A DNA stretch of 64,000 nt from Celeribacter persicus (lineage in GTDB: Bacteria > Pseudomonadota > Alphaproteobacteria > Rhodobacterales > Rhodobacteraceae), in NCBI RefSeq assembly GCF_003050785.1, contig NZ_QAOH01000007.1, positions 1 to 64,000 of the forward strand, read 5' to 3'. The notes beneath the pieces are model-generated. The model did not search any database. It was not told the DNA's origin and saw only the letters and a list, made by a program, of their open reading frames with translations. Made by a program: the position numbers and the translations under genes. The number at the start of each line of letters is the position of its first letter. Position 1 is the first letter of the stretch. Positions 6,474 through 64,000 of the stretch are shown piece after piece.

Positions 6474-6484
6474 CGGGATTGGCT

Positions 6485-6524
6485 CCTGTCTTTGGAGGCG
6501 GGGGACCATCCCCCGCGCGACAGG
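6485..6524 (-). promoter_or_regulatory. two-tier stem-loop in the leader of the small membrane gene
   Basis: CCTGTC (6485-6490) pairs with GACAGG (6519-6524). Inside, GCGGGGGA (6498-6505) pairs perfectly with TCCCCCGC (6509-6516) around a 3-nt loop. On the minus strand the structure ends immediately before the ribosome site of the 54-residue gene. It could mask or expose that site, or act as a terminator for upstream transcription. Confidence 0.45.
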
Positions 6525-6708
6525 CGCCCGACGTGTCTGACCGGATCTGCACTCACCCTCGGGCGTTCGGACTTTTTCCGAAGCCCCGAGGGCGGCACGC
6601 GTGCGTAAGCCGACCCCTCCGGGGTTGAATGTCAAAGAGACGGATCAGACCGAGGTTAGCGAATGGAAGCGGGGGTGGTGTCTGCATCCGACAGGCGCCG
6701 GAGACCCC

Positions 6709-6839
6709 CACTGCAGATGTTTCGCCGTGCCAGCCTCGCAGCCACGCCGGCATCAGAAGCGTGTTCCAGGCCGGGGGCGGAATCCGATGCCCAACATGAT
6801 GAGCGGCAGCATGATGAAGCTGGAACTGGAGCCATGTAG
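6709..6839 (+). pseudogene. decayed inverted copy of the small membrane gene
   Basis: Read on the plus strand, this segment matches the 54-residue gene at 6309-6473 over most of its length. Shared blocks include GCAGATG, GCCAGCCTCGC, GTGTTCCAGGCCGGGG and AAGCTGGAACTGGA, followed by an altered stop region. Small deletions and substitutions break the frame between the blocks. The two copies therefore form an imperfect inverted repeat of roughly 130 bp about 240 bp apart. Confidence 0.6.
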
Positions 6840-6888
6840 GCCGATGACATGACGACGGTCGCTGATATCGTCGGACGTGGACGGGCCT

Positions 6889-7194
6889 TCAGTCCCAGAG
6901 CCCATCGGCGATCTCGCGGGCGATCATCGCGCGCGCTCTCATCATCACGTCGTCACCGCTGGTGTCGATATGACCGTAGAAGCGGGCATGACCGCCGTTC
7001 GCGGTCCAATCGGCGTAGCGGCAATATGCGCGGGCTTCGAGACGGAAGGCGCGCATGTCGTCCGCCCAATGCGGCTTCGGCTCCACCACCACCGTGATGC
7101 CGTCGCAGGTTTCCTCCCAGGGCAGCGTGCGTTCGGATGGTGGACTGGCGCGGTTCTCACGGAATATTCGGTCGATATCGATCGTTCCAGGCAT
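6889..7194 (-). CDS. conserved plasmid/ICE protein of unknown function
   Basis: This 101-residue soluble protein begins MPGTIDIDRIFRENRAS and has an aromatic/Arg-rich centre (EARAYCRYADWTANGGHARFYGHID). GGAG lies eight bases before the ATG at 7194, so the longer upstream extension is not needed. It sits just beyond a strong terminator at 7208-7235, so it probably has its own promoter or depends on read-through. I do not recognise the family with certainty; similar small proteins occur beside ParB-domain genes on Rhodobacterales and Sphingomonadales plasmids. Confidence 0.6.
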   Translation of the reverse strand: MPGTIDIDRIFRENRASPPSERTLPWEETCDGITVVVEPKPHWADDMRAFRLEARAYCRYADWTANGGHARFYGHIDTSGDDVMMRARAMIAREIADGLWD

Positions 7195-7207
7195 CAGGGT
7201 TCTCCAA

Positions 7208-7235
7208 AGAAAAAGCCCGGTCACGAGGACCGGGC
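7208..7235 (-). terminator. rho-independent terminator after the ParB-domain gene
   Basis: GCCCGGTC (7215-7222) and GACCGGGC (7228-7235) form a perfect 8-bp stem with a 5-nt loop. On the minus strand the stem is followed directly by a run of five T. It lies 56 bp after the stop of the 708-residue gene. Confidence 0.8.
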
Positions 7236-7290
7236 GAAGTGGGAAAAGGAAGGGATGTGGCGGGGCAGCGAACACCGCCCCACCTGAGGA

Positions 7291-9417
7291 TCATTCGGCA
7301 GCGACCATTGGCTGCTCCTCGTCCTCCGTGGCGTCTTCACCCTCGCCATCGCTGGCAAGGAATTCAGGCAGATCATCCGCCCCGGTGTCGCCCCCGGCGT
7401 CCGCATCGACATCCGCATCGGGATCGACCATGCGCAGCGGCTCCGGCAACCAGCCGGTTTCTGCCAGCAGCCGCTCGGCCTCTTTGCCCATATCGCCCTT
7501 CTTGAGGTGGTCGATGAGCTGGGCCGCCCGCTCGCCGGCGCCCTCACGCACCGCCTCGATGATCCGCGGCTTGGTCACGCGGCCGAGATAGTTGGCGACG
7601 GTCGGCCTCCAGCCCACCGCCACCATGTCGAGGCCCGTTGCCCGCGCCAGCCGTTCGGCCTGGGACAGGCGGACGTCGAGACCGTGCTGGCTGACGCCCA
7701 TGCCGCTATAGGGGTTGGGCTTCTCGTGCAAGGCGTTGACGCCGAAGCTGATGCAATGGGCGAGCAACTCCATGCGGGTGTCGTCGTCCTGATCGGAGAG
7801 CCAGTCCCAGAGCGCCGCATCGTCGGCCGGGATATGATCGCCCCAGCGTTCGTGCCGCTCGGCGATGGCGCGCGCCGAGACGCTTTCGCCGAGGTCGTCG
7901 GCTTGCGCCGGGAAGTGAACCTCCCGGACATGGGCCTCCAGGCACCCCCTGGTGGAATGCGGCAGGAAACAATCCGTGACCAGCCGGTGCAGCAGCGCCG
8001 TCATGGCGACATGCGGGTTCATCGCCACAGCGTCCCGGAGCGCCAGGGTGCGATGCGCGGTCAGCTCGCTGACGAGGCGATCGGGCAGCGGCCGGATGGT
8101 CTCGACCTCTTCGTCCTCGTCGGTCTCAGGCGCAGCACCGCCCACGGTGATGACGGCGCGCCGGACGCTGCCGTCTTCGTCGCCTTCGACAGATGCACCA
8201 TCGACATCATCGCCTTCCTGGCCGTCCACCACCTCGTCTTCGGGGCGGACATAGCCGCGCTCGACGGCAAGCTGGCCGTCATGGCGGATGCTGACGAAGA
8301 CACCGGCACGGGCCATCTGGTCCGCGTCATAGCGCATCGGCCGGTTTTCGAAGGCCTCCAGTGCCTCCTCGATCTCGCCGAGACGGGCATCCACCTCGTC
8401 GGGGAACTCGTCGGCCTGGGCATATTCCGCCTCCAGCGCCTCGAACTCGTCCCGCAGCTTCTCACGCTCGGCACGCTCCTCGTCGGTCAGGTCGATGGTG
8501 GTGCCGGCCAGACGGCGCATGCCGCTGGTATGGCCATAGGGGAAGTCCACGGCGATCTCGATCCACTTCCAGCCCTCAGCGGCGATGGTCTCCGCCTCGG
8601 CCTTCAGCTTCTCGCCCGCCAGCCGGTCGAGCAGCACCGGGTCCTGGAGCCAGCCGCCATCGTCCTGCTGGAAGAGATCGCGCAGCACATAGCCGCCCGC
8701 CGCCTCATAGGCCTCGATGCCGACGAAGAGCGCCCGCTTGTCGGAAGCCCGCACCGTGGTCTCGGTCAGCATGCGGCGGATCGTATAGGGCTCCTTCTGC
8801 CAGCTGTCCTTGATCGCCTCCCAGACCTGTTCTTGGCGGGCGTGGTCGTCAGAAACGGTGAAGGCCATGAGCTGTTCCAGCGTCATACCATCCTCGGCAT
8901 AGGTTTCGAGCAGCAACGGCGAGACCGAGACCAGGCGCAGGCGCTGCTTCACGACCCTGGCGTCGACGAAGAAGGCGGCGGCGATTTCCTCTTCGCTCAT
9001 GCCCTTCTCACGAAGGACCTGGAAGGCGCGGAACTGGTCGAGCGGATGCAGCGGCGCGCGCTCGATGTTCTCCGCTAGCGACACCTCGTCGATCAGGATA
9101 TCGTCTCCGGCCTCCGAGACCACACAGGGCACCGGCGCGGTCTTGTTGAGGCGCTTCTGCTTCACCAGCAATTCCAGAGCACGAAAGCGGCGGCCGCCAG
9201 CCGGCACCTCGAAGAGGCCGGTCTCCTTGCCCTCCGCATCGAGCTCGGGCCGGACATGCAGCGATTGGATCAGCCCGCGGCGGGCGATGGACTCGGCCAG
9301 TTCCTCGACCGAGATGCCGGCCTTCACGCGCCGGACATTGGACTGGCTGAGCAGCAGCTTGTTGAAGGGGATGTCGCGCGAGGACGACAGGGTGATCTTT
9401 TGAGTGGCAGTGGCCAT
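7291..9417 (-). CDS. ParB/RepB/Spo0J-type nuclease/partition-domain protein, plasmid form
   Basis: The N-terminal 110 residues match the ParB N-terminal (Srx-like) fold: NVRR near 28, PAGGRRFRAL near 73 and ENIERAPLHPLDQFRAF near 115, the last being the classic ParB box. A helix-turn-helix-like segment follows (EEIAAAFFVDARVVKQRLRL, about 140-160). The remaining 500 residues are an acidic, Ala/Glu-rich extension not found in chromosomal ParB (about 300 residues). This size and tail are typical of the ParB-domain proteins on alphaproteobacterial plasmids and ICEs that accompany RadC and ArdC. No ParA lies nearby, so a canonical partition role is doubtful. The leader at 9430-9505 is radC-motif-like. 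Confidence 0.85.
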   Translation of the reverse strand: MATATQKITLSSSRDIPFNKLLLSQSNVRRVKAGISVEELAESIARRGLIQSLHVRPELDAEGKETGLFEVPAGGRRFRALELLVKQKRLNKTAPVPCVVSEAGDDILIDEVSLAENIERAPLHPLDQFRAFQVLREKGMSEEEIAAAFFVDARVVKQRLRLVSVSPLLLETYAEDGMTLEQLMAFTVSDDHARQEQVWEAIKDSWQKEPYTIRRMLTETTVRASDKRALFVGIEAYEAAGGYVLRDLFQQDDGGWLQDPVLLDRLAGEKLKAEAETIAAEGWKWIEIAVDFPYGHTSGMRRLAGTTIDLTDEERAEREKLRDEFEALEAEYAQADEFPDEVDARLGEIEEALEAFENRPMRYDADQMARAGVFVSIRHDGQLAVERGYVRPEDEVVDGQEGDDVDGASVEGDEDGSVRRAVITVGGAAPETDEDEEVETIRPLPDRLVSELTAHRTLALRDAVAMNPHVAMTALLHRLVTDCFLPHSTRGCLEAHVREVHFPAQADDLGESVSARAIAERHERWGDHIPADDAALWDWLSDQDDDTRMELLAHCISFGVNALHEKPNPYSGMGVSQHGLDVRLSQAERLARATGLDMVAVGWRPTVANYLGRVTKPRIIEAVREGAGERAAQLIDHLKKGDMGKEAERLLAETGWLPEPLRMVDPDADVDADAGGDTGADDLPEFLASDGEGEDATEDEEQPMVAAE

Positions 9418-46686: not shown

Positions 46687-47226
46687 ATGACGCAAGGTAC
46701 AGAGATCGGTCCGCTTCGCGACGAGGACTGGCCATCGCAGATTGAAGACCTGCGCGAAGGGTTTGCCGGCGCTCTGAACGTCTATCGCACCATGGCGCAT
46801 CACCCCGATCTGCTGCGCGCCTGGGCGCCCTTGCGACAACATATCGTCAAGGACAGCGTGCTCGGCGCGGTGAATTCGGAGATCGTGATCCTGCGCACCG
46901 GTGTGCGGCTCGGCTCGTCCTACGAGTGGGCGCATCACGTCTCGCGGGCGCGCGCACTTGGCATGGACGATGCCCGGATCAAGGGCGTTCTGGCAACACC
47001 CGAAGGGACAGACGCGCTTCTTGTGCAAGCCGTCGATTCCATCATCGACCACCAGAAGCTCTCCCCGGCACTGGAACGCCAACTGGCAGCAACCTTCGGT
47101 CAAAAGGCCGTGTTCGACATCATCGCCACGGTCGGGTTCTACACGGTTCTCGGCACGATCCTGATGACCTATGACGTGCCTGTCGATGACAGGATCGCAG
47201 CGGAGATCGAAGCGAACCCGCTCTGA
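46687..47226 (+). CDS. carboxymuconolactone decarboxylase family protein
   Basis: The 179-residue protein follows the AhpD/CMD pattern (LRQHIVKDSVLGAVNSEIVILRTGVRLGSSYEWAHHVSRARALGM) with the catalytic-type histidine in the EWAHH helix. It lacks the C-x-x-C of AhpD peroxidoreductases, having SSYEW instead, so a decarboxylase or lactonase-like role is more likely than a redox one. It ends 12 bp from the convergent IclR gene at the edge of the catabolic cluster. Confidence 0.85.
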   Translation: MTQGTEIGPLRDEDWPSQIEDLREGFAGALNVYRTMAHHPDLLRAWAPLRQHIVKDSVLGAVNSEIVILRTGVRLGSSYEWAHHVSRARALGMDDARIKGVLATPEGTDALLVQAVDSIIDHQKLSPALERQLAATFGQKAVFDIIATVGFYTVLGTILMTYDVPVDDRIAAEIEANPL

Positions 47227-47238
47227 TCCAACACCTCT

Positions 47239-48027
47239 TCAATCCGGCAGAGAGGCCGCGATCTTGTCGGCAATTTCCCTGAGAGGCGGCCCATATTCAT
47301 CGAGAGCGCGCCGCGTCGTCATCGCACTTCGGATCCAGATCAGCGAAACACACCCGAGCACCGCGCCGCGCAAAAGGATCGGCACGGCAATCGAGGCGGT
47401 TTCCAGACGAAACTCACCACTGTCGCGCACGGCAAAGCCACGGTTGCGGGTTTCCTCGATCAGATGCGACAGCATAGGTTCTTCGAGAAATGGCCGGTCT
47501 TCCTCGACGTCGAGACGGCGCAGGTGATCGAGAATCAGGTTGCGCTCTTCCTCGGGACAAAAGGAAATATAGGCCCGTCCCGCAGAGGTACGCAGCACCG
47601 GCATCCGAAACCCGGTCATCCCCCGGTCGATGGACAGGGGCGAGCGTCCGTGCGTCGTCTCCTGAATGACCATCGCGGCATTATTATACATGCTGAGATC
47701 GAGCGGCCAGACCAGCCGCTTGGCATAGTCACCGAAGATCGGCCCCGCCGCCTGGGTGATCTCGGATGTCAGGGCTGTTCCGTCCCCCAAAGCAGCGGCA
47801 AAGCGGGTGACTCGGACATAGTTGGACGTCGCCGAAAACGCGACATAGCCCAGTTCTTCCAGCGTTTCCAAAAGCCTGTAGACCGTCGGACGCGGCAGAT
47901 CGAGAGCCTTGGCGATCTCGCCGGGGCGTGCCTCCCCGACCCTGTTGACGTAACGCAGGATGGCAAGGCCCCGCGCGAGGGATCGCACGGAGCCTTGTGA
48001 CAGTTTCGGTGTGACCTGCATGCTCAT
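47239..48027 (-). CDS. IclR family transcriptional regulator
   Basis: The N-terminal winged helix is clear (SLARGLAILRYVNRVGEARPGEIAKALDLPRPTVYRLLETLEELGYVAF), followed by the IclR effector domain (RSPLSIDRGMTGFRMPVLRTSAGRAYISFCPEEER). It is the last gene of the leftward catabolic unit. It resembles MhpR/PcaR-type regulators, which are activated by the pathway substrate, so it probably controls this unit. Confidence 0.92.
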   Translation of the reverse strand: MSMQVTPKLSQGSVRSLARGLAILRYVNRVGEARPGEIAKALDLPRPTVYRLLETLEELGYVAFSATSNYVRVTRFAAALGDGTALTSEITQAAGPIFGDYAKRLVWPLDLSMYNNAAMVIQETTHGRSPLSIDRGMTGFRMPVLRTSAGRAYISFCPEEERNLILDHLRRLDVEEDRPFLEEPMLSHLIEETRNRGFAVRDSGEFRLETASIAVPILLRGAVLGCVSLIWIRSAMTTRRALDEYGPPLREIADKIAASLPD

Positions 48028-48076
48028 GGGACAAGCATCTCACAAGTCACACCGGGTTGAAAGCCAACGACGCAGG

Positions 48077-48919
48077 TCAGGCTTCCGCTTTCACCGGGTT
48101 CGACAAGATGCCGACCCCGGAAACCTCGACCTCACAGACATCGCCGTCCTTCATGAACAAAGGCGGATTGCGACGCGCACCGACCCCGCCCGGCGTGCCG
48201 GAGACGATCACATCGCCCGGCAGAAGCGGCAGGATAGTCGAGCAATAGGCAATCAGGCGCGGGATCGAACACACAAGCATATCGAGCGTGGTGTCCTGAA
48301 CGGTCTCACCATTCAGACGCGTTTGCAGGCGCATCTTGGTGTGGTCCGCGATCTCGTCGGCGGTGGTCATCCACGGGCCGAAACCGCCGGTGCCGGCAAA
48401 GGTCTTGCCCGGCATGAACTGGTGCGTGTGCTTCTGCCAGTCGCGCACGGAGCCGTCGTTATAGCAGGCATAGCCCGCGACATAATCCATCGCATCCTCT
48501 TCGGAAATCCGGCGGCCTTCCTTGCCGATGATCACCGCGACCTCGCCCTCGTAATCGAACATATCGGATTCAAGCGGCTTGATCAGCGGCTCGTTGTGGC
48601 CGATCTGGGAGCCTTGGTAGCGGGCAAAGAGCACCGGGTTCGGGGTCTCTTCACGGCCGGTCTCTTCGATGTGGGCGTGATAGTTCAGGCCGACGCAAAT
48701 GATTTTGTCCGGGTTCGGGATGACCGGATCGTGTTTGACATCGTCAAAGGCATAGTCGGCATCGGCAGAGACGAGCTTCTCGGCCGCGGCCATATCGCCC
48801 GAGGCAAGGAAATCGCGCAGCGTCGGCGCGTCGAGACGTTTGCCGAGATCGACGATGCCAGAGTCGTTGACGAGGCCGTAAGAGGACACGCCGTCTTTGG
48901 TGAAAGAGCAAAGTTTCAT
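48077..48919 (-). CDS. fumarylacetoacetate hydrolase family protein
   Basis: The 280-residue protein has the FAH core: IICVGLNYHAHIEETGREETPNPVLFARYQGSQIG, the metal-binding DYEGEVAVIIGKEGRRI with its E-x-E pattern, and a C-terminal GDVIVSGTPGGVGARRNPPLFMKDGD. This group includes acylpyruvate hydrolases and 2-hydroxyhepta-2,4-diene-type isomerases and decarboxylases. Next to an extradiol dioxygenase it most likely processes the ring-cleavage product. Confidence 0.9.
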   Translation of the reverse strand: MKLCSFTKDGVSSYGLVNDSGIVDLGKRLDAPTLRDFLASGDMAAAEKLVSADADYAFDDVKHDPVIPNPDKIICVGLNYHAHIEETGREETPNPVLFARYQGSQIGHNEPLIKPLESDMFDYEGEVAVIIGKEGRRISEEDAMDYVAGYACYNDGSVRDWQKHTHQFMPGKTFAGTGGFGPWMTTADEIADHTKMRLQTRLNGETVQDTTLDMLVCSIPRLIAYCSTILPLLPGDVIVSGTPGGVGARRNPPLFMKDGDVCEVEVSGVGILSNPVKAEA

Positions 48920-48922
48920 GAG

Positions 48923-50422
48923 TTAAGCCATTTCCGGTTGTTGCGTTTCGAGTGGATTGGGCAGGATGAGGGCAATCAGCGCCTCAAGTTCCTGTGTCGT
49001 GTCGGCCCCGCCCAGCGTGTGACGGTCGGGACGCAGAACTGTGGCCCGCGCACCGAGGCGAGCAAGGTGATCGGCAGCATTGGACGCGCTCGTGGTCACA
49101 AGCCCCACGCCCTCGGGCAAACTCAGCCCCGCGACGATCTCGTCCTCGGCGACAACCACGAATTGATGCGGATAAACCTCATCCATAAGACGGCTATAAG
49201 CCAGGCGCGGTTGTCCGAAAAGCCGCCCGGCCTTGTCTCCGATCCCAAGGCCCGGCCCCAGAGGCGGCGCGATGCTTTCCATCCGGGCCGTGCCATCACC
49301 GGAGGGCAGAGCCGCGCGTAACGCCGCTTCCGTACCCACCGTGTTGATCAGCCCCCCCAGACGCACTGCCGTCTGGATATATTCCCGCGCATTGGGCTTG
49401 CGCTCGCTTTCGTAGCTGTCGAGCAACGCCTCTGCGGCCTCTCCCGCAACCTTGCCCTGACAGATCAGCGCAAGCTTCCAATAGAGGTTCGCCACATCGC
49501 GCGTGCCTGCACACATCCCCTGCCCCATGAAGGGCGGGGTCTGATGACAGGCATCCCCGACCAGAAGCAACCGCCCCTTGCGCCAGTCTTCGGCGACCAG
49601 AGAGTGAAAGGTGTAGACCGCGGTCCGTTCGAGTTCCGCCTCTTCCGGTTTGAGCCAGTCGGACAAGAGCTCCCAAACGCGTTCGGGTTTCGAAATCTCG
49701 GCGCTGTCCTCATCGGGCCGCACGGTGATCTCCCAACGCCGCCGCATTCCCGGCACCCGCACATAGGTCGCGGGTCGTTCCGGGCGGCAATACTGGATCG
49801 AATGTTCGCCCAGCTCCGGCTTCTCCTCGTTCAGGATCACATCGACCACGAGCCAGCGCTCATGGAAGCCGTAATCCTCCATACCGCTCTCGATATAGCG
49901 CCGCACCAGAGAGCGCGCGCCATCGCAGCCAACGACATATTTCGCGCCGATCCGTTCGACCTTGCCGCGAGACATGTCCTCGAACCGTAGTTCGACTTCC
50001 TCACCTTTGTCTTCGATATAGAAAACATCGCAGCGCGTGCGGACAGTGACCGTTTCACGCTCTGCCATATGTGTCCGCAACACATCTTCGAGGTCCGGTT
50101 GGTGGAAGCGGTAATTGGCACGCCAACCCTGTGGCCCCTCGCCCTGCGGTCGCGGCCAATCCAACAGCAGCTTGCCAGCCGGATCGACAAAGCGCATCCC
50201 CGGATGTTTCGCGGTTTTCGGCTCCATCTCCTCGGCGATGCCGATCCACTGGAACACCCGCATCACCTCGGCGTCGAAATGTACCGCGCGCGGCAGATGA
50301 TAGGCCGCGCTTTCACGTTCCAGCACGATGGTTTTCAATCCGCACTGACCCAGAAGATGCGCCAGCGTGGCCCCTGCGGGCCCGTAGCCCACGATGGCAA
50401 CGTCATACTGTTCCATAGTCAT
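48923..50422 (-). CDS. FAD-dependent aromatic hydroxylase (MhpA-like)
   Basis: A class A flavin monooxygenase. FAD-binding GYGPAGATLAHLLGQCGLKTIVLE lies at the start, the DG motif in YVVGCDGARSLVRR, and the GD motif in RLLLVGDACHQTPPFMGQGMCAGTRDVANLYWKL. At 499 residues it fits MhpA-type 3-hydroxyphenylpropanoate hydroxylases, which ortho-hydroxylate a phenol to a catechol. Its start overlaps the dioxygenase stop (ATGA), so hydroxylation and ring cleavage are coupled. The exact substrate cannot be read from sequence. Confidence 0.9.
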   Translation of the reverse strand: MTMEQYDVAIVGYGPAGATLAHLLGQCGLKTIVLERESAAYHLPRAVHFDAEVMRVFQWIGIAEEMEPKTAKHPGMRFVDPAGKLLLDWPRPQGEGPQGWRANYRFHQPDLEDVLRTHMAERETVTVRTRCDVFYIEDKGEEVELRFEDMSRGKVERIGAKYVVGCDGARSLVRRYIESGMEDYGFHERWLVVDVILNEEKPELGEHSIQYCRPERPATYVRVPGMRRRWEITVRPDEDSAEISKPERVWELLSDWLKPEEAELERTAVYTFHSLVAEDWRKGRLLLVGDACHQTPPFMGQGMCAGTRDVANLYWKLALICQGKVAGEAAEALLDSYESERKPNAREYIQTAVRLGGLINTVGTEAALRAALPSGDGTARMESIAPPLGPGLGIGDKAGRLFGQPRLAYSRLMDEVYPHQFVVVAEDEIVAGLSLPEGVGLVTTSASNAADHLARLGARATVLRPDRHTLGGADTTQELEALIALILPNPLETQQPEMA

Positions 50423-51411
50423 TTTCCCCCGGAACCCGTTTGTTTCGCCAATTCACCGAAAAGCCAGGGGCAATCCGCCACCTGCGGCGCACGCACACCA
50501 CGCGCAGCAGCATCCAGCCGCATATCGCGCAGACGTTTGCGTCCACCTTCCTCGGTCAGATAAAGACGCTCATGCCCCCAGAAACTCGGTCCGTCATGGG
50601 TTTCATGCGGCTCCCATGTCTCTGGCTCGATCAGTCGTCCGCCCCAGCCATTTTCAACAAAGAAGCCGGAGGGCGAATTGGCGTAATACGAGGTCATGTA
50701 ATCGTTGGTGTGCCGCCCCAGCGTATAGGCGACGCGCCCCTCTTCGAGCTGGGCCAGATCGTAACCCTGCCCGACATCGTCGAGGTTCTGGAATTCGACC
50801 ATGAAATGATGGAACCCAAGCTGACCTGAGCCGACCATCGCGAAGGAATGGTGACGTTGATTGAGATGGAAGAAATACAACCCGTAAGGTTTCAGCCCGT
50901 AATCCGAGACGTGGAAATCCAGCAGGTCGCGGTAGAACGGCATCATCACCTCGATGTCTTTCACATGCAACACCGCGTGCCCCATGCCCAGAGGCCCGGT
51001 CTTGAACCCGTCGATGGGACGTCCCGGTACGAAAGGATCGGAAGCGATCATCGGCGCATGGAACAGTTCCACCCGGTTGCCGCCCGGATCCTCGAACCAG
51101 ATCAGATCGCCGACAAAACGCCGGTCCGCCAGTTCACGGGTTCCGAGATTGACCGTCACCCCCGCCTTGTCGAGACGTGCGGCGTAAAGCTGAAGATCGT
51201 CTTTTTCAGCCACCTCGAACCCTATGAAGGCCAGCGTCTCGCCCGGTTCATCCGAGATCAGAAGTCGCTGCATCTTATCGTCCATGCGGAAGGCCAGCGC
51301 CTTGCCGCCGCGGTCGATCTTCTGCATCCCCAAGAGTTTGCCGGCAAAATCGGACCAGTCGTCGAGCTTGTCGGAGCGCACACCGAGATAGCCCAGAGCA
51401 ATAATCGCCAT
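50419..51411 (-). CDS. extradiol dioxygenase (VOC superfamily)
   Basis: A type I ring-cleaving dioxygenase of 330 residues built from two VOC modules. The likely Fe(II) ligands are the histidine in MGHAVLHVKD, the histidine in LGFHHFMVE and the glutamate in SGFFVENGWGG. It would open a catechol made by the adjacent hydroxylase. The ATG at 51411 has GGAG six bases upstream; an earlier ATG at 51423 is worse placed. It lies between the monooxygenase and the TRAP genes in one direction. Confidence 0.9.
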   Translation of the reverse strand: MAIIALGYLGVRSDKLDDWSDFAGKLLGMQKIDRGGKALAFRMDDKMQRLLISDEPGETLAFIGFEVAEKDDLQLYAARLDKAGVTVNLGTRELADRRFVGDLIWFEDPGGNRVELFHAPMIASDPFVPGRPIDGFKTGPLGMGHAVLHVKDIEVMMPFYRDLLDFHVSDYGLKPYGLYFFHLNQRHHSFAMVGSGQLGFHHFMVEFQNLDDVGQGYDLAQLEEGRVAYTLGRHTNDYMTSYYANSPSGFFVENGWGGRLIEPETWEPHETHDGPSFWGHERLYLTEEGGRKRLRDMRLDAAARGVRAPQVADCPWLFGELAKQTGSGGK

Positions 51412-51520
51412 GGTTGTCTCCATTGGTTGAATTCGGAATGCTCCTTTTTAACCGGGTTGCTGCACGACCCCGAGGAGCGTTCTCCGCCCGTCCACTGGGC
51501 GGACGGAGAGAGAGGTGGTA

Positions 51521-56608: not shown

Positions 56609-58174
56609 TCATGACGCCGCATGTGCCAACCCCTCATGGGCGATCATCTGTGAGACAAGAGCCTTGAAGTGTTGCGTCAAAATCAGATGACCCGCGTTTT
56701 CAAAGGCATGGAAGGAAGCCTCCGGCATTGTCTCCGCAATCGCCTGAATGTCTTCTATGGGGCTGATCGGATCTTCTTCTCCGTGAACGAATGTCACCCG
56801 ACAGGTGGTTTTTTTAAGATCGCCAAGCCAGTCACGCTGTAAATTCGCGATCTCATCCACTGAGGCAAAAGTCGCATGGTTTGCAATCAGACGGAGCCAG
56901 TCGGACAAATGCGTATGCCGGAAAAATGTCTCAAGACAGGCCGTATCCGCGGCAGATTTACGGTAAAGATGCGCTAACCCTTTTTTTGCCAACACAGGGA
57001 CACGGCTGAAAGCATTATAAATTTGCGTCAACCCGGCGATGACACGTTCGTCACGACGCACCCGTTGCGACATTTCGATGAAAATCGTCGGGTTGTGAGA
57101 ACCTGGCTCCGGTTTGAACACTTGCGGTGTGGCGGCCAGGACCAGTTGGGACACCATATGCGGATTATGTCGGGCAAAATGCGCCGCCCAGGTCACCCCG
57201 GCACTCTCGGCCACACAGATCAACGGCTCATCTGTCAAATATTCCATTGTGTCCGACAGCGCCCTCGTGAGTCTTGCCAAGCGCGTCTGGACATCCAGAT
57301 TACCCTCGAACCCAAGAAAGTGTCGTGGCACAACCAGCCAGCGCAAACCGTTCTCCTTGAGCGTGTCTATCATCTCGTCATGAAAAACGACGGGCGCCAG
57401 CATGCTATGGAAATACAGCACAGGCCGCCCTCGCCGCGCCCCGAACTCCCACACGGGAACGTCAATGCCGTCTCCGATAGAGATGGTGTTGACAATGACA
57501 TCCTTGCCGAACTGCCGTTTGACGAGAGCGGTCTCGAAATCGCGCTTTTGCAGCGGAAGGATTTCATCCAGAATGCCGGCCGTGATCTCCAGAGACAGGT
57601 TTCTGAGGAGCACGGTTTGAGTTTTGCATCCCATCTTGTCGAGGATGACCTGAATCTGTTTGCGTTTCGTGTCATAGGAAGCCCCAAGCCGTGCCGCCGC
57701 CGTTTTCAGATCGAGACCGGTCAACAGATGGGACAGCAACAGATATTCCGAGGGGGTCAGGCGTACATCTGTTGCATTCTCGGCCAACGCCGCAATTCGT
57801 TCGGCATCGAGCCGAACGGCAACGAACGCGACATGGTCCGGAACATCGCTCCAGCGTTCCACGCGATCGTAGAGAAAGTACAGGCGCTCGTCGACCACCA
57901 CAAAGGTACAGCCGCTTGCCAGATTGCCCGGCATGTGAATGACGGGCGGGAATAAACTGTCTGATTGTGAAACGATGCTATGAATTTGCCGGTTGCCATC
58001 GTGATCGTAGAGATTGGCAGGCAATCGGCAATTTGAAAAACTGCGGAAAAAGAACTGCTCACTTGAGGCTTCGTCTTCCCGCAGATGCAAAAGCGCATCT
58101 TCAGAGGGCAATGCCAAACGGTCTTTTTTGAGTACAGTCGTCAAGATCTGAATGAATTGCGATGGAGGTGTCAT
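56609..58174 (-). CDS. LuxR-type HTH regulator fused to alpha/beta hydrolase
   Basis: The 521-residue protein joins three parts. There is an N-terminal region of about 145 residues with no known fold. A LuxR-type helix-turn-helix lies at about 150-210 (LTPSEYLLLSHLLTGLDLKTAAARLGASYDTKRKQIQVILDKMGCKTQTVLL). A C-terminal alpha/beta hydrolase (about 245-515) has its nucleophile elbow in CVAESAGVT and its acid and base in VHGEEDPISP and ENAGHLI. The serine is in G-x-S-x-G-like context AESAG. It could sense or hydrolyse a small ligand that controls DNA binding. It is divergent from the next LuxR gene. Confidence 0.8.
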   Translation of the reverse strand: MTPPSQFIQILTTVLKKDRLALPSEDALLHLREDEASSEQFFFRSFSNCRLPANLYDHDGNRQIHSIVSQSDSLFPPVIHMPGNLASGCTFVVVDERLYFLYDRVERWSDVPDHVAFVAVRLDAERIAALAENATDVRLTPSEYLLLSHLLTGLDLKTAAARLGASYDTKRKQIQVILDKMGCKTQTVLLRNLSLEITAGILDEILPLQKRDFETALVKRQFGKDVIVNTISIGDGIDVPVWEFGARRGRPVLYFHSMLAPVVFHDEMIDTLKENGLRWLVVPRHFLGFEGNLDVQTRLARLTRALSDTMEYLTDEPLICVAESAGVTWAAHFARHNPHMVSQLVLAATPQVFKPEPGSHNPTIFIEMSQRVRRDERVIAGLTQIYNAFSRVPVLAKKGLAHLYRKSAADTACLETFFRHTHLSDWLRLIANHATFASVDEIANLQRDWLGDLKKTTCRVTFVHGEEDPISPIEDIQAIAETMPEASFHAFENAGHLILTQHFKALVSQMIAHEGLAHAAS

Positions 58175-58492: not shown

Positions 58493-59077
58493 ATGCACAA
58501 CAACGCACCATCTTTTCATATCGCGCGTAAAAGCGCCAAAACTGAAATGGTTGATCTCGCCTTCCTCGATCTCGACAGTGAGGGGCGGATCATCTCGCAT
58601 GACGCACTTGCGAAACGCTTTCTGGATATGAAGCCTCACTATATCAGAAAGAACGGTGCCAGGTTCTTCACTCCCGATCCCAGCCACACTTTCTTGCGTG
58701 CTTTACTGGCGGCATGTGACGACGTTAATCCTGTCTCCACTGTTTTCAATCCAAGCGAAGATACGCGCGATCCGTTTCTCCAGATCAATGTTCTTCCGTT
58801 TCAACCGGGGCTGGCGCGCGTCGTTCTGTTCTGGGCGCATTCTGATACCGAAATCAGCGAGACAGAAGACCCCGCCCCTTCTGTCTCAGTCCTTTCCGCA
58901 AGAGAACGCGACGTTCTGGAGTTGGCGGCAGAGGGCCTCAGGCGTGATCGCATTGCTTATAAGTTAAACATTTCCCTGCCAACTGTAGACATGCATGCAC
59001 GCAACCTGCGTCGCAAGTTGTCTGCACTCACGACATCCGAAGCGGTCGCAATTGCTGTTAAAATGAAGCTGCTCTGA
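58493..59077 (+). CDS. LuxR-family transcriptional regulator
   Basis: The 194-residue protein has a PAS-like or unclassified N-terminal half (LDSEGRIISHDALAKRFLDM) and a C-terminal LuxR helix-turn-helix (SVLSARERDVLELAAEGLRRDRIAYKLNISLPTVDMHARNLRRKLSALTTSEAVAIAVKMKLL, about 130-194). A receiver domain is absent. It lies about 540 bp before the ferrosome-like operon, points toward it, and may regulate it, though the Slam pair is another candidate. The ribosome site is weak. Confidence 0.85.
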   Translation: MHNNAPSFHIARKSAKTEMVDLAFLDLDSEGRIISHDALAKRFLDMKPHYIRKNGARFFTPDPSHTFLRALLAACDDVNPVSTVFNPSEDTRDPFLQINVLPFQPGLARVVLFWAHSDTEISETEDPAPSVSVLSARERDVLELAAEGLRRDRIAYKLNISLPTVDMHARNLRRKLSALTTSEAVAIAVKMKLL

Positions 59078-59616
59078 TCCCCGAAAATAACGACAAAGCT
59101 CCCTGTAATCGTCAGGTGGGCTTGCTTATATCTTTTATCAGTCACGATCTGGGCGGGGAGCGCGATGTCGCAAATGCCGGGCGACATTTGATCTATGAGA
59201 AAGCGGATGTCGATTTTCCTTGAGAACTGATGGTGGCATCCCTCTCCCGATGGCACCCTGCGTGGTCGCAATGCCGGCCTGATACATGACCGCACCCGAT
59301 CACACATCAGCGCTGAAATCTGCCTTCTTGTTTTATCAACGGCGACGCCCCATTGGGCCACCTGTGGAGTGCGCCCCATGGGATTCCTCAGCCAACCACG
59401 CGGCGCGAGAACGGATCGCGGACCACGCAGAGATACAGCCAGCCTGGGTATCAACAGTTTTTCTGCTCTCTCAGACAAACATGATCTTTATCATGGACCT
59501 TGCCGCGGCTTCATGTTCAAATTCAATATCAGGTATATATCTTTCAGCCAGCGCTCAGGCACCATGCCGGAGTTCCCAGCCAGAGAAGATGCGAAAGCAA
59601 CGATCTGTAAAGGAAT
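59078..59616. other. regulatory region in front of the ferrosome-like operon
   Basis: A 539-bp gap without a convincing gene. An open frame at 59286-59663 lacks a ribosome site and has poor codon character. The FNR-type box at 59481-59494 is the main feature. AATATCAGGTATATATC around 59522-59540 is AT-rich and could contain a -10 element. Confidence 0.45.
59481..59494 (+). promoter_or_regulatory. FNR/FnrL-type box
   Basis: ATGATCTTTATCAT keeps the TGAT-N4-ATCA core of the FNR site (TTGAT-N4-ATCAA) and extends to a perfect CATGAT..ATCATG dyad. It is 122 bp upstream of the first gene. This suggests induction of the operon at low oxygen, but the outer bases differ from the consensus, so another CRP/FNR-family factor is possible. 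Confidence 0.6.
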
Positions 59617-60132
59617 ATGGCGCAGATGAGCGTTTCATCTCACGACACACACAAACAATCTGAAACGGGCAGGAAGCCAACGCTCGGGACCGGGGAAAAC
59701 CCACCCTTTGGCTGGTATTACTTCGGACCCGAACCGCCTTGGAAAACCTCAGGGGCCGCGCCTTCCTCCAGAGACACCAACGCCGACGCCTCGGGAGAGG
59801 ATAACACCGATCTGATGCGGGCCTTCGACCGGTTGTCGCGTGGTGAGGTCAATGCGGAAACCATCGGTAAGCTCTTCGACCTGAAGGACCGCGATTTCTG
59901 GAAAGGCGCGCTGGCCGGGGCCGCAGCCGCCCTTGCGGCCAACAACCTGCCCGCACTCAAGGCAATGGCAGCCAGCGTCATGGCCGGTGCTTTCGCGCAG
60001 GCAACGCCCGCGAAACCCGCCGCGGCATCCACGGCAAAAACGGATAAAGCGCCCGATCCGCACAGCAAGGAACACTCCGGGACGCAACAGGCTCCGGATC
60101 AGACCACGCAAGAAGAGGAGACTTCAGTATGA
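59617..60132 (+). CDS. ferrosome-cluster protein with low-complexity N-terminus
   Basis: The 171-residue protein has a hydrophilic, Pro/Trp-rich start (PPFGWYYFGPEPPW) and an acidic middle. A helical, Ala-rich hydrophobic segment follows (WKGALAGAAAALAANNLPALKAMAASVMAGAFAQ, about 95-128), then a polar tail. The segment could bind a membrane or self-assemble. AAAGGA overlaps the start region; a second ATG at 59626 is also possible. It overlaps the next gene by 4 bp, so the operon begins here. I do not recognise a family; similar hydrophobic small proteins accompany P1B-ATPases in fez clusters. Confidence 0.6.
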   Translation: MAQMSVSSHDTHKQSETGRKPTLGTGENPPFGWYYFGPEPPWKTSGAAPSSRDTNADASGEDNTDLMRAFDRLSRGEVNAETIGKLFDLKDRDFWKGALAGAAAALAANNLPALKAMAASVMAGAFAQATPAKPAAASTAKTDKAPDPHSKEHSGTQQAPDQTTQEEETSV

Positions 60133-60503
60133 GCACGTCCAGCAAACTCAATCTCACTCAGGCCACACAGCCCGGAACATTGCCCGACGCAAGCCAGATC
60201 ATGCGCTCTGGCGTCAACGGCGCCGCCATCACCGGGGCCTGGACCGCGATCAACGAGACCATACGGGTGCGCAATGGCGAAATCACCACAGAGGAAGCGG
60301 TGAAAGCCACCGCCAACAGCGCCGCCATCGGCGCAGGCGCGGGAGCCGTGGCCTCTGTGGCTTCGCATATCGCGCGCTCCATTCCGCTTTCGAGCCTCGC
60401 GCTGATCGCTCTGGGAGCCGGTGTGCTCTACCTGTCGAAACAGTCGAAGAAAACCACACCGCCCGCCGCGCCCGAAGCTGAAACAGAAGCGGCAAAAGGC
60501 TGA
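60129..60503 (+). CDS. small Gly/Ala-rich membrane protein (magnetosome MamC-like or fez-type)
   Basis: The 124-residue protein has a polar N-terminus and two hydrophobic stretches: a Gly/Ala-rich helix with a glycine zipper pattern (SAAIGAGAGAVASVASHIA, about 73-91) and a second helix (PLSSLALIALGAGVLYLSK). Membrane-sculpting MamC-like magnetosome proteins and fez-cluster small proteins share this layout. The ATG overlaps the upstream stop (ATGA). A shell or membrane-associated role in an iron compartment is inferred from its neighbours. Confidence 0.6.
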   Translation: MSTSSKLNLTQATQPGTLPDASQIMRSGVNGAAITGAWTAINETIRVRNGEITTEEAVKATANSAAIGAGAGAVASVASHIARSIPLSSLALIALGAGVLYLSKQSKKTTPPAAPEAETEAAKG

Positions 60504-60547
60504 CGCCTCCGCACGCGGGCATGAACTGACAGTGAAAGGAGGCTCTC

Positions 60548-60790
60548 ATGGCCAACACTCCGAACGACACCGGCATTCCGCTCACCGCCGCCAATCTTCT
60601 CAACAGCAAATTCCTGACCGGCGCTGTCGTCGGTGGTTTGGTGACCTATGTGCTGACCAATGAGGCTGTGCAAAAAGCCGCGCTGAATGGGCTGGCCCAT
60701 CTCTGGATCACTCTGCAAGGCGGTGTGGAAGAGGCCAAGGAACGGTTCCGCGACGCCGAGTCCGAGATCAAGGCCGCCCGCGACAGTTGA
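60548..60790 (+). CDS. small membrane protein, DUF5132/YtxH-like
   Basis: The 80-residue protein has one hydrophobic helix (FLTGAVVGGLVTYVLTNEAVQKAAL, about 19-43), followed by an amphipathic, charged helix (EEAKERFRDAESEIKAARDS). A GAGGC ribosome site lies six bases upstream. It is a close fit to the DUF5132 or YtxH style of small membrane proteins found beside metal P-type ATPases. It ends 29 bp before the ATPase. Confidence 0.6.
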   Translation: MANTPNDTGIPLTAANLLNSKFLTGAVVGGLVTYVLTNEAVQKAALNGLAHLWITLQGGVEEAKERFRDAESEIKAARDS

Positions 60791-60819
60791 GGACTGTCGC
60801 GGACTTCAAGGAGTCGAGC

Positions 60820-62991
60820 ATGCGTGTCGAAACCCTTCCGAATGCCGTTTCTCCCGTGGTGTCGGCAGCCGCACCTTCCGGCAAGGCGCGGCTGAAGATC
60901 GTGCATGAAACGAAAGGGCGTCTGCGGGTCAAAATGCCGATCCTGGGCCTGCCCGGGCTGGACACCGAACATCTTGCCCGGGTCCTGCGCGGCACACCGG
61001 AGGTCCGCACCGTCCGGATCAATCCCGGAGCCATGTCGGTGGTCTTCGAGTTTACCGGCGGGCGCGCCACACGTTACCGTATCCTCGACCGCCTGTCCTG
61101 CCTGACCCGTGATCAGATGCGGTTTCGTGCACCCGATGAAGACACACGCCCCTCGGCAGTTCCTCTGTTCAAACGCGCCGCACTTCTCGCCGCGCTTCCG
61201 GTTCTGCCCCCGACGGTTGGCAGGGTGCTTGCGATTGCGACAATTGCGCCACGCGTGCTGCGCGGGGCGCGTTCTCTGGTGAGCGAGGGGATCACCGTCG
61301 AAGTGCTCGATGCGCTCGCCGTCTCGCTCGGCGCCTTGCAAGGCCGGTTCGGTACGGCGGTTACCACCGATTTCATGATGGAAACCGGCGAATATCTTGA
61401 GGAAAGCACAATCCGCCATTCCGGCGCGCTGTTGCAGGATTTGTTGATGCCGAACCCGGAACATGCCTGGATCGAACGCGACGGTCATGCGGTCGAAGTA
61501 CCCTTTTCCGAGGTCCGCAAGGGCGACAGGGTGGTGGTGCAGACCGGCGAACTGGTGCCCGTCGACGGTGTGGTCTGTGGCGGTGCGGCGCAAATCAACC
61601 AAGCCTCGATCACCGGAGAGAGTCTGCCGGAAACCAAGACTGTGGGAGACATGATCATTGCTGGCAGCCTGGTCGAGAGCGGATCGCTCAAGATCATCGC
61701 TGAACAAGTCGGATCGGACACGACCACCGCGCAGATCGCGGCGATGATCCGTGAGTCACTGGAGAAACGCTCCACCACCGAGAAACGGGCCGAACGCCAC
61801 GCCAATCGTCAGGTCTACATGACTCTCGGGCTGGGGGCCGCCACCTTGCTTTGGACGCGGGATGTCAGACGGCTCAGCTCGGTCTTTCTGGTCGATTACG
61901 CCTGTCCGATCAAACTCTCCGCCCCCGTGGCAATCCGCGCCACCATGTCGGAAGCGGTGGCGCGCGGCATCCTGATCAAGGGTGGTCCGAGCATCGAGAA
62001 GCTCGCAGAGGTCGATACATTCGTTTTTGACAAGACCGGCACGCTGACTCGTGGCGAACTGGCGGTGACGGATGTGATCTCGCTGAAACTGCGCGGTTGG
62101 TCGAAGGCCCGGCTGCTGGCGCTCGCTGCTTCGCTCGAAGAACATTCGCAACATCCGCTGGCCCATGCCATTGTCGCAGAGGCGAAAGCCCGCGACACCG
62201 GTCATTGCGACCATGGCGATGTCATTTTCGACGTCGGTCACGGGCTGCGCGCCGAAGTGAGCGGGAAAGAAGTCCTGATCGGCAGTCGGCATTTCCTAGA
62301 AAACCGTGAAGGGGTGGATTTCACACCACATGAAGCCGTGTTGGACCGGCTGACCGATGAGGGGAAAATGGCCCTGTTCATCGCGGTGGGCGGCAAGCCT
62401 GCCGGTCTGATCGGCCTTCGGGACGAATTGCGCGACGATGCAAACGAGACCGCCGCACGGCTGCGCGCGAGCGGTGTGAAACGGCTTGTCATGCTCACGG
62501 GCGACCGCCGGGCACGGGCCGAGGGTTTTGGCGAGACCCTTGGCTTTGACACGGTCCATGCCGATCTGCGTCCGGAGGACAAGGCCCGCATTCTGGCCGA
62601 ATTGCAGGAGCGAGGCCATAAGGTCGCCTTCGTCGGCGACGGGATCAACGACGCTCCGGCTCTGGCGCAGGCCCATGTGGGCTTCAGCATGTCGCAAGGT
62701 GCCGATATCGCCCAAGCGACCTCGGATATCACCCTGATGGATGACCGGATCAGCGCCGTGGCCGATGCGCGGGAAGCTTCCGACCGGGCCATGCAGATTA
62801 TCAGGACCAACACCAATCTGGCACTTGGTATCAACACCGGTCTGTTCATCGCCGCATCCGCCGGAACGCTCTCGCCAGTGGCGGCTGCGGTGGCCCATAA
62901 CGGTTCGACCTTCGGCCTCTTGCTTTACGCCCTGTCGCGGGCCGGGGTGCCTGCAAAACGGACAAAGCCAGTGACGCTATCCGAAATGTGA
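60820..62991 (+). CDS. fezB: P1B-type metal ATPase, FezB-like
   Basis: A heavy-metal P-type ATPase of 723 residues. The actuator motif TGES is at 265-268, the membrane motif CPIK at 362-365, the phosphorylation site DKTGT at 404-408, the SQHP site follows, and GDGINDAPAL closes the catalytic core. It has no CxxC metal-binding domain. Instead the N-terminal 80 residues form an HMA-like fold with H29-x3-G33-R34-x-R36. This motif and the small partners fit FezB (P1B-6), the transporter that defines ferrosome clusters. Iron would be moved into a membrane-bound compartment. The ATG at 60820 has AAGGAG seven bases upstream. A Zn/Co or unknown-metal pump is the alternative. Confidence 0.8.
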   Translation: MRVETLPNAVSPVVSAAAPSGKARLKIVHETKGRLRVKMPILGLPGLDTEHLARVLRGTPEVRTVRINPGAMSVVFEFTGGRATRYRILDRLSCLTRDQMRFRAPDEDTRPSAVPLFKRAALLAALPVLPPTVGRVLAIATIAPRVLRGARSLVSEGITVEVLDALAVSLGALQGRFGTAVTTDFMMETGEYLEESTIRHSGALLQDLLMPNPEHAWIERDGHAVEVPFSEVRKGDRVVVQTGELVPVDGVVCGGAAQINQASITGESLPETKTVGDMIIAGSLVESGSLKIIAEQVGSDTTTAQIAAMIRESLEKRSTTEKRAERHANRQVYMTLGLGAATLLWTRDVRRLSSVFLVDYACPIKLSAPVAIRATMSEAVARGILIKGGPSIEKLAEVDTFVFDKTGTLTRGELAVTDVISLKLRGWSKARLLALAASLEEHSQHPLAHAIVAEAKARDTGHCDHGDVIFDVGHGLRAEVSGKEVLIGSRHFLENREGVDFTPHEAVLDRLTDEGKMALFIAVGGKPAGLIGLRDELRDDANETAARLRASGVKRLVMLTGDRRARAEGFGETLGFDTVHADLRPEDKARILAELQERGHKVAFVGDGINDAPALAQAHVGFSMSQGADIAQATSDITLMDDRISAVADAREASDRAMQIIRTNTNLALGINTGLFIAASAGTLSPVAAAVAHNGSTFGLLLYALSRAGVPAKRTKPVTLSEM

Positions 62992-63014
62992 CATGGGACG
63001 CGGCAGCAGAAAGC

Positions 63015-63043
63015 TTGACTGTTTTTCTCCGAATCTCAATACT
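63015..63043 (+). promoter_or_regulatory. predicted sigma70-type promoter of the fezC-like gene
   Basis: TTGACT (63015-63020) and AATACT (63038-63043) are separated by 17 bp, a good -35/-10 pair with four of six matches in the -10. It lies between the ATPase and the small HMA-like gene, giving that gene its own transcription start. A perfect palindrome overlaps the -10. Confidence 0.55.
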
Positions 63044-63058
63044 GACAACAATTGTCAG
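63042..63058. promoter_or_regulatory. 17-bp perfect palindromic operator
   Basis: CTGACAA-CAA-TTGTCAG is a perfect inverted repeat that overlaps the predicted -10 and the likely transcription start, 21 bp upstream of the fezC-like gene. This is an ideal position for a repressor. Iron-responsive IscR/RirA-type regulators of Rhodobacterales use palindromes of this style, but I cannot confirm the consensus. Confidence 0.6.
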
Positions 63059-63078
63059 CTTTTCGGAGACGCGCAACG

Positions 63079-63471
63079 ATGGTTTGCTGTGTGCACAACA
63101 TCCCCGGTCGGGCCCGGTTCAAGATCGAGGCCCTGCGCAAGGACGAGACGCTCGCCAGCCTGATCAAGTTGAAGGTCGGTGCGCTGGATTTCGTCAAATC
63201 CGTCGAAATCAACCGCAAAGCCGCCTCTGTCGTGGTGCATTACTGCACCAAACGTGGCGAGGTCGGGCGGATCATGGATCACATCTGCGCCCATTGTCCG
63301 AAAGCCGCCACGCCGCGCGCGCCGGAACAGGTCGCCCGCCCATTACCCCATCGTCAAAACCGCCCGCTTCTGAAAACCGACACAGATTTCGGTCGTGCCA
63401 TGACCAATGCCGCAGGCAAAGCTGTGGTCAACACGCTGATCAACCGTCTGGTGTTGCACGCTCTGCATTAA
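63079..63471 (+). CDS. fezC: small HMA-like protein, FezC-like
   Basis: The 130-residue protein begins MVCCVHNIPGRARFKIEALR, with H6-x3-G10-R11-x-R13, the same H-x3-GR-x-R motif as the ATPase N-terminus. A beta-alpha-beta pattern follows that resembles an HMA domain (ALDFVKSVEINRKAASVVVHYC). A CAHC motif (70-73) could bind metal. The C-terminal half is polar and basic. It may deliver or sort iron to the ATPase. A possible terminator hairpin follows at 63482-63503. Confidence 0.65.
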   Translation: MVCCVHNIPGRARFKIEALRKDETLASLIKLKVGALDFVKSVEINRKAASVVVHYCTKRGEVGRIMDHICAHCPKAATPRAPEQVARPLPHRQNRPLLKTDTDFGRAMTNAAGKAVVNTLINRLVLHALH

Positions 63472-63481
63472 AGGCGATCCC

Positions 63482-63503
63482 GAGATGCCCGCACGGCGTC
63501 TCT
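63482..63503 (+). terminator. possible terminator hairpin
   Basis: GAGATGCC (63482-63489) pairs with GGCGTCTC (63496-63503) allowing one G:T pair, with loop CGCACG. A short T-run (ATTT) follows. It fits the end of the fezC-like transcript, but its strength is uncertain. Confidence 0.4.
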
Positions 63504-63582
63504 CATTTCAGGCGCGGACCTAAGGTGAAAGCGCTGTTGGTAACCTGAGCGACACGCTGCAAAGCCGTTCAGTCCGCTTCTG

Positions 63583-64000
63583 TCAACCTCGCTGCCGTTT
63601 CCCCGCCTTCAATACCAGCACCAAAGCCGCCCCCGCCACTGCGCCCAGAACAAAGCCCCAGGGACCGGCCGCCCGTGCCGTTGCAGCAAGCCCCGCACCG
63701 CCCAACAGGCCCAGAGCAGGCGCTGCGACATCGGATTGTGCCGGGGGAACCGGTACAACTTCGCGCGCGACACAGGCCTCGAACGCGGCCAGGTGATTGT
63801 CGCCCGAGGCATGCCCCAGTTTTGCGAAAACAGCCTGCGTCCGCTCATCCTCCACGCGCGCGATCAAGCGCCGATACATCGCCTCGTTTTCCTCTTCAGC
63901 CACCACCCCAAGCTGACAAACCTCGCCAAGACTGTCCGGCACATCGACCTGCCCCATGAAGCGGTCTTCCGGGACATCGAAGCCGTGCTCTTCGAACAAC
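63583..64000 (-). CDS. ferritin-like (DUF2202-type) protein with C-terminal membrane anchor, partial
   Basis: Only the C-terminal 138 residues are in the window, and the start lies beyond 64000. The visible part shows DSLGEVCQLGVVAEEENEAMYRRL and VFAKLGHASGDNHLAAFEAC, which match the last helices of DUF2202-type ferritin-like proteins, including the E-E and H-x5-H iron-site residues. A Pro/Val linker leads to a C-terminal membrane helix (AAGPWGFVLGAVAGAALVLVLKAGK). A membrane-tethered iron-binding protein next to a ferrosome-like operon is striking. It converges on fezC with 111 bp between them. Confidence 0.6.
   Translation of the reverse strand, partial: LFEEHGFDVPEDRFMGQVDVPDSLGEVCQLGVVAEEENEAMYRRLIARVEDERTQAVFAKLGHASGDNHLAAFEACVAREVVPVPPAQSDVAAPALGLLGGAGLAATARAAGPWGFVLGAVAGAALVLVLKAGKRQRG

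Follow-up and report, generated by a model that had tools for sequence, protein, structure and literature searches.

A probable five-gene ferrosome operon with an altered FezB transport-site motif in Celeribacter persicus

The window, by which we mean the whole 64,000-nucleotide stretch of Celeribacter persicus DNA analysed here (bases 1-64000 of contig 7 in a 4.3 Mb genome of 94 contigs), carries near its end a block of five genes at 59617-63471, all on the + strand, which encode three small glycine-zipper membrane proteins (A, B and C), a P1B-type ATPase and an HMA_2 protein. Comparison with other genomes makes it very probable that these genes form a ferrosome (fez) operon. Its five-gene type is alphaproteobacterial and is found in Rhodobacter capsulatus too. 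A first-pass annotation of the same DNA had proposed a fez cluster and, tentatively, a new form of it in Rhodobacterales that uses shell or packing proteins of its own; the ATPase phylogeny, the operon synteny, the FezB-typical residues and the neighbouring iron genes uphold the first part of that proposal, and the second has to be given up, as described below. The operon, of an otherwise known kind, stands out by a distinctive FezB site and a heme-less FezC half.

The genes of the operon

Gene A (59617-60132) encodes a protein with a GWYYFGPEPP segment and a glycine-zipper membrane helix (FWKGA motif), and gene B (60129-60503) a small helical membrane protein that appears to be a divergent relative of MamC. 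Gene C (60548-60790) occupies the FezA position and encodes a member of a YtxH/DUF5132/DUF6110-like family with a glycine zipper and an acidic tail. It is followed by fezB (60820-62991), which encodes a 723-residue P1B ATPase with the transport-site motif DYACPIK, and by the HMA_2 gene (63079-63471), whose product is FezC-like in its N-terminal half only, carrying MVCC and CAHC cysteines and no two-His heme module. The successive spacings are -4 (an overlap of A and B by 4 bases), 44, 29 and 87 bases. For gene A, a second ATG at 59626 has a better-spaced AAGGA (judged by eye), and the HMA_2 start at 63079 was chosen by alignment with R. capsulatus, the mechanical start of this open reading frame (ORF) being 63052.

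In local alignments, with identities counted over the aligned parts only, A, B, C, the ATPase and the HMA_2 protein are 46, 63, 67, 65 and 57% identical to their counterparts in R. capsulatus DSM 1710 (locus L015), where the genes stand in the same order; 42, 46, 61, 57 and 31% identical to those of a Rhizobiales locus (L121; we use 'Rhizobiales' as the group name read from Rhodomicrobium); and 39, 40, 56, 57 and 30% identical to those on plasmid pORIO2 of Cereibacter azotoformans (L011). Conservation at the protein level in other species shows that none of the five is a chance ORF, and the five rightward genes of the first-pass annotation are confirmed. The wider extent given there (59481-63999) does contain the cluster; none of the cluster's genes is placed in 59481-59616, and the genes themselves span the shorter interval given above.

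The ATPase belongs to the FezB clade

The best NCBIfam match of the window ATPase is the heavy-metal P-type ATPase subfamily. We placed it in a tree of 67 P1B ATPases, of which 37 had been labelled FezB beforehand from a D[YF][SA]C motif plus gene context and 30 were other P1B pumps, five of these from the window's own genome. The tree was built by a quick method with Shimodaira-Hasegawa-like approximate likelihood ratio (SH-aLRT) support and no bootstrap, some of its outgroup rows are long, and it leaves aside two loci with no suitable ATPase ORF (L004 and L007), two second copies from the same genomes (L115 and L118) and many general P1B loci. All 37 FezB-labelled rows fall on one side of a branch with SH-aLRT support of 96 and the 30 outgroup rows on the other, and the fez grouping needs one change on the tree, a value reached in 0 of 500 shuffles. 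The FezB clade takes in a Lachnospiraceae row, a Spirochaetales row and the Desulfovibrionaceae, the family of the first ferrosome organism. Within it the window FezB groups with R. capsulatus and L122 (support 100) and then with Cereibacter (support 96). Elsewhere in the tree another pump of the window's genome (L001) groups with Pseudosulfitobacter, and such nearest relatives place the host in the Rhodobacterales. The question set beforehand, whether the ATPase would fall among Zn/Cd/Cu pumps, is thus answered by its place in the FezB clade, and the tree rules out such a pump identity.

As first noted, the protein has no CxxC. It contains four cysteines, and the match of residues 21-78 to HMA_2 stays below threshold (E 0.0077). 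Columns were counted as FezB-typical if they were conserved in 85% or more of the 36 other FezBs but in no more than 15% of the outgroup. Thirteen columns qualified; the window protein keeps 12 of them, including E441, H442, H462, H465, H474 and H491, the exception being position 361.

An altered transport site in one clade

The transport sites of the 30 outgroup pumps read C-P-C (17), C-P-G (6), T-P-C (1) or x-T-G (6), and those of the FezBs read Y/F-S-C in 32 of 37. The typical M4 motif Y-S-C-A is replaced by Y-A-C-P in four of the 37, namely the window, R. capsulatus (L015), Cereibacter (L011) and L122, and the FezB of L097 reads Y-A-C-A. Since the four Y-A-C-P proteins form one supported clade, one origin suffices. 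The L122 member (6420-8690, genome G619) lies between KatG-like and GNAT-like genes (by eye), with no match to any of seven small-protein profiles within its 14 kb. The pumps of L024, L028, L030, L050, L052 and L065 make up a P1B group of their own, whose transport site has T-G; HMA_2-type (PGRxR) proteins lie near L024.

The Y-A-C-P motif may mean a change in metal handling. Taken further, the locus would encode a fez-derived membrane system in which FezB has changed its metal and which stores or exports another ion, for example Zn, Mn or Co. Such a shift would fit the restriction of the transport-site change to a single four-member clade, one of whose members is an orphan FezB; however, FeoAB and a ferritin-fold gene adjoin the window operon, TonB receptors and FeoA lie beside the Cereibacter copy, and the small-protein set is complete in all but one of the four. 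We consider a changed metal unlikely.

Operon types and their distribution

The ferrosome operon reading also draws on gene order, A-B-C-FezB-HMA_2 being common to the window, Cereibacter (L011), R. capsulatus (L015) and the Rhizobiales loci L121, L124, L128 and L107, which come from four genomes. A second order, HMA_2-B2-A-B-C-FezB, is found at L119 and L120, from two phototrophic Rhizobiales genomes. By profile search, B is present at 24 of the 37 FezB loci of the tree, each time with a C-type protein upstream of FezB (at L020 a further small gene stands between the two). Both A and B are present in fez operons from Rhizobiales, from Gammaproteobacteria and from a Desulfarculaceae, and Campylobacterota have B as well, which rules out shell proteins peculiar to Rhodobacterales; what sets the present version apart is the FezB transport-site motif.

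The FezA-like small membrane protein adjoining fezB is putatively gene C, an assignment made by gene position and family. Among the 17 members of the C family, six match DUF5132, four DUF6110 and three YtxH; the window's own C has no Pfam match at E<=0.1. Gene A has no NCBIfam match at E<=1, and its best Pfam matches have E values of 0.23 and 0.47. The profiles of A and C match each other because of the shared glycine-zipper helix, and the two were therefore told apart by position.

Outside the Alphaproteobacteria, 65 of 119 Desulfovibrionaceae genomes match a FezB query at E<=1e-120. At the ten best of these loci, a C-family protein precedes FezB in nine, as it does in the window, and an HMA_2+heme-type protein follows it in all ten; no A or B match was found at these ten, where the flanks are short, about 1.5 kb at most of the loci and 6 kb in L036. 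The Desulfovibrio magneticus-type system (FezA, FezB, FezC) is thus resembled in the placing of a C-type gene before and an HMA_2 gene after FezB, D. magneticus itself not being identified among the loci; it differs in that the FezC-type proteins there carry a two-His module that the window HMA_2 protein lacks, and in that A and B are unmatched in those short loci. A Lachnospiraceae locus (L025) gave no small-protein profile match, which indicates that the small proteins are not universal or have diverged beyond these profiles; its genome has two FezB-like ATPases (L025 3349-5442, with a DFSCAIE motif, and G545 C5:28595-30679).

Six-gene fez operons were reportedly described by Grant et al. 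2022 in Rhodopseudomonas palustris CGA009 (RPA2333-2338) and Shewanella putrefaciens. The window operon is like these in joining FezB to several genes in one operon, and the six-gene HMA_2-B2-A-B-C-FezB form is seen at L119 and L120; it differs in having five genes, a single B and the HMA_2 gene after fezB, these systems being set apart by description only. Two phototrophic genomes (G644 and G607) were considered as substitutes for R. palustris and dropped, since by eye the puf operon of each encodes a cytochrome subunit of the tetraheme type, which R. palustris is not known to have; a search of the family returned only three genomes. PMC12016538 states that R. palustris CGA009 forms ferrosomes from six fez genes.

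FezB is unevenly distributed in the groups that we sampled. At E<=1e-100 it was found in one of 20 genomes of the genus, the window's own, and with an Azospirillum query (E<=1e-130) in 12 of 297 genomes of the order of Rhodomicrobium, Rhodomicrobium included. This patchiness, together with plasmid copies, suggests transfer. The Cereibacter plasmid, which is typed as conjugative, carries its fez operon (L011 6188-6430 and 2891-5083) near FeoA, NnrS and TonB receptor genes, so that organelle genes may be mobile. Sinirhodobacter populi (G541) has two FezB genes in two separate fez operons of the order HMA_2-TM1-B-C-FezB (L126 and L127).

P1B ATPases usually work at the plasma membrane, and the window operon is known here from its genes alone; both points would suit a plain plasma-membrane iron exporter, with the small proteins as stabilisers and no organelle. 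Against such an exporter, the operons nearest to this one are of the fez kind, it has three additional glycine-zipper proteins that are conserved, and PMC12574912 reports FezA and FezB to be required for ferrosome formation in Clostridioides difficile. We therefore judge it very unlikely and retain the ferrosome operon as the preferred reading.

An HMA_2 protein without the heme module

The window HMA_2 protein scores 40.5 bits against Pfam HMA_2, above the cut-off of 30 (E 3.5e-10). In Azospirillum, Hahella and Desulfovibrionaceae, the C-terminal part of the HMA_2 proteins is a hydrophobic segment whose two His are invariant in nine aligned rows, and the matches to DUF4405 are sub-threshold (E 0.18 to 0.0049). 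By alignment, no such module is present in the HMA_2 proteins of the window, R. capsulatus, Cereibacter, Rhizobiales L119, L121, L124 and L128, Vibrio (L014) and G421 (L096), and a heme-module profile search of the window's whole genome returned a single match only, at E 0.785. The CYT profile drew in HMA_2 sequence during iteration, and its matches on HMA_2 proteins were judged by alignment. The list of loci just given rules out the heme-less HMA_2 protein as a hallmark of the Y-A-C-P clade alone. The MVCC and CAHC cysteines are common to the window and R. capsulatus proteins and were not seen in Cereibacter.

FezC binds heme and resembles DUF4405, as stated in PMC10979944, and the window protein, which lacks the two-His module, is therefore not filed as a FezC cytochrome. 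FezC is not required by definition: for C. difficile, PMC12574912 describes a system of FezA and FezB. That system (Pi et al. 2023), likened to ours by description and not by sequence, shares with it FezB and a small membrane protein, and differs in that only two Fez proteins are named for it.

Gene B and MamC

The first two small proteins had been said to belong to no recognisable family. This stands for A, and has to be revised for B, which matches NCBIfam MamC (Mms13 of magnetosomes) weakly in the window (17.1 bits, E 0.0049, profile positions 12-63) and strongly in its relatives. In the B family, 17 of 22 proteins match at E<=1, with a best E value of 5.6e-15 (55.4 bits); ten members scanned singly gave E values from 1.1e-3 to 5.6e-15 and covered most of the 97-position profile, and block-shuffled versions gave no match at E<=1 (0 of 10). 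Because five of the 22 do not match, the scores seen stay below the 100-bit equivalog cut-off of NF038051, and the window match is weak, we regard B as a relative and not as a member of MamC. A low-confidence model of B has helices at residues 21-48, 54-82 and 88-106 (mean predicted local distance difference test score, pLDDT, 61.6).

Searches for MamC at E<=0.001 found nothing in the window's genome, where magnetosome genes as such were not searched for, or in 385 genomes of Alphaproteobacteria; the controls were silent too, so these searches neither support nor weaken the link between B and MamC. Likewise, tblastn of B against plasmids gave no match and missed even the Cereibacter copy revealed by synteny, so its misses mean little; for the same reason, little is said by a single-sequence search of 198 genomes of the family, which returned only the window's own B. 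We found no published statement of a link between B and MamC, although Grant 2022 and Pi 2023, which lay outside our search, may contain one. This relationship would be the most novel element of the locus.

Iron genes beside the operon

Converging on the operon is a ferritin-like gene on the - strand (63583-64165, of which 63583-63999 lies inside the window; L009 8584-9165, minus), whose product ends in a C-terminal hydrophobic helix; its presence had been noted at first, and it extends past the window end. Beyond it on the + strand follow a small ORF, a DUF4198 gene (E 3.3e-50), FeoA (E 8.6e-22) and FeoB (FeoB_N, E 2.2e-64). Ferrous iron transport genes recur elsewhere, with FeoA near the Cereibacter operon, FeoA-FeoA-FeoB beside that of Pseudothauera and FeoB beside a gammaproteobacterial one.

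The model of the ferritin-like protein, built on a three-row alignment, is a four-helix bundle (helices 3-33, 39-59, 79-103 and 107-136) with block pLDDT of 87-98 over residues 1-130 and a poorly modelled C-terminal part. Foldseek ranks MJ0754 first (E 4.9e-4, with no other match at E<=0.001), ahead of bacterioferritins at about 1e-3. The candidate di-iron ligands E19, E46, H49, E90 and H124 are invariant in an alignment of three rows, and the second ExxH glutamate is not conserved. Against Pfam DUF2202 the protein scores 17.3 bits, below the gathering score of 22; it shares with DUF2202 proteins the predicted four-helix bundle and 28% identity to an Arcobacter in-operon protein, but in Arcobacter, a gammaproteobacterium and Pseudothauera the domain lies inside the fez operon, whereas in the window it is encoded by a separate gene on the opposite strand. 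These in-operon DUF2202 domains have an added C-terminal hydrophobic segment (L012 4339-5022, L023 3889-4635 and L021 3827-4546), which is gene A-like in L012 and L023.

Across 390 genomes of the order, a relative of the ferritin-like protein occurs in two (E<=1e-8) and FezB in two (E<=1e-150), and only the window's genome has both, a co-occurrence that is only suggestive because this genome was chosen for the finding. DUF2202 relatives were found on 14 plasmids, two of them from Arcobacter; one of the other twelve (Neotabrizicola) has no fez genes annotated within 8 kb on either side. The tie between ferritin and fez is thus loose, and we treat the gene as a companion rather than a proven part of the operon.

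Upstream of the operon are a LuxR-type gene (58493-59077) and a hydrolase gene on the opposite strand (56609-58174). Farther away, at 46760-51414, two pieces making up 14% of a 24-kb query match a Martelella plasmid at 76% identity, in a segment that carries genes for hydroxyphenylpropionate degradation.

Possible FNR control

A possible FNR-like palindrome, ATGAT-N4-ATCAT, lies on the + strand at 59481-59494, 136 bases upstream of A, and agrees with 8 of 10 consensus positions (shuffle p 0.108). At this level the window holds 22 matches against a chance mean of 18.25, which is no excess, and the region before the DUF4198-Feo genes likewise has an 8/10 site (p 0.15). Exact 10/10 sites occur 73 bases upstream of the Cereibacter operon and 181 bases upstream of that of Pseudothauera (0 of 500 shuffles each). 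Two of the 17 operons that could be scored (one of 18 was too short) thus have an exact site, a lead and not proof; since the window site is within chance, it was not used as proof of anaerobic control.

Weighing the evidence

Several of these results weigh against the ferrosome reading. The FNR-like site of the window lies within chance, the FezC heme module is absent from its operon, and its B taken alone matches MamC weakly and over about half of the profile. R. capsulatus lacks E441, H442, H462 and H465 and Cereibacter lacks H474 and H491, so the FezB-typical residues are not indispensable in that clade. The metal-site motif is unlike that of other FezBs, so that specificity could have shifted, and the tie to the FezBs of experimentally tested strains runs through relatives and clade placement. 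Set beside the tree, the synteny, the retained residues and the iron genes, these points leave a ferrosome operon very probable.

From this gene set we infer metal, direction of transport, vesicle formation, regulation and a division of labour as follows. Low oxygen, a change in iron supply, or both would lead to co-transcription of the five genes. The small glycine-zipper proteins A, B and C would pack together in the inner membrane, crowding and bending it, and would bring in FezB, with B, as a MamC relative, probably residing in the vesicle membrane. The neighbouring FeoAB importer would deliver Fe(II), which FezB, using ATP, would pump into the vesicle, where it would be deposited as an iron granule. 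The HMA_2 protein may serve as a cytosolic adaptor or regulator of FezB and not as the heme redox partner proposed for FezC, and a part in buffering or oxidising iron at that membrane is possible for the ferritin-like membrane protein.

A broader and more speculative idea, which we put forward tentatively and hold to be somewhat doubtful, is that ferrosomes and magnetosomes share an ancestral vesicle-membrane protein (B/MamC) as part of a common toolkit, and that ferrosomes of a Rhodobacter-type branch dispense with the heme module of FezC, use a remodelled metal site in FezB and have handed the redox step over to a ferritin anchored in the membrane. If the MamC relative in fez operons is real, it becomes possible to test whether the two iron organelles have parts of common origin. 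The four-member clade with altered FezB and the heme-less operons offer a comparison for metal choice and for the need for heme. R. capsulatus is a species with established genetics, and placing a ferrosome operon in it, as read here in DSM 1710, would make the roles of the small proteins testable by gene removal.

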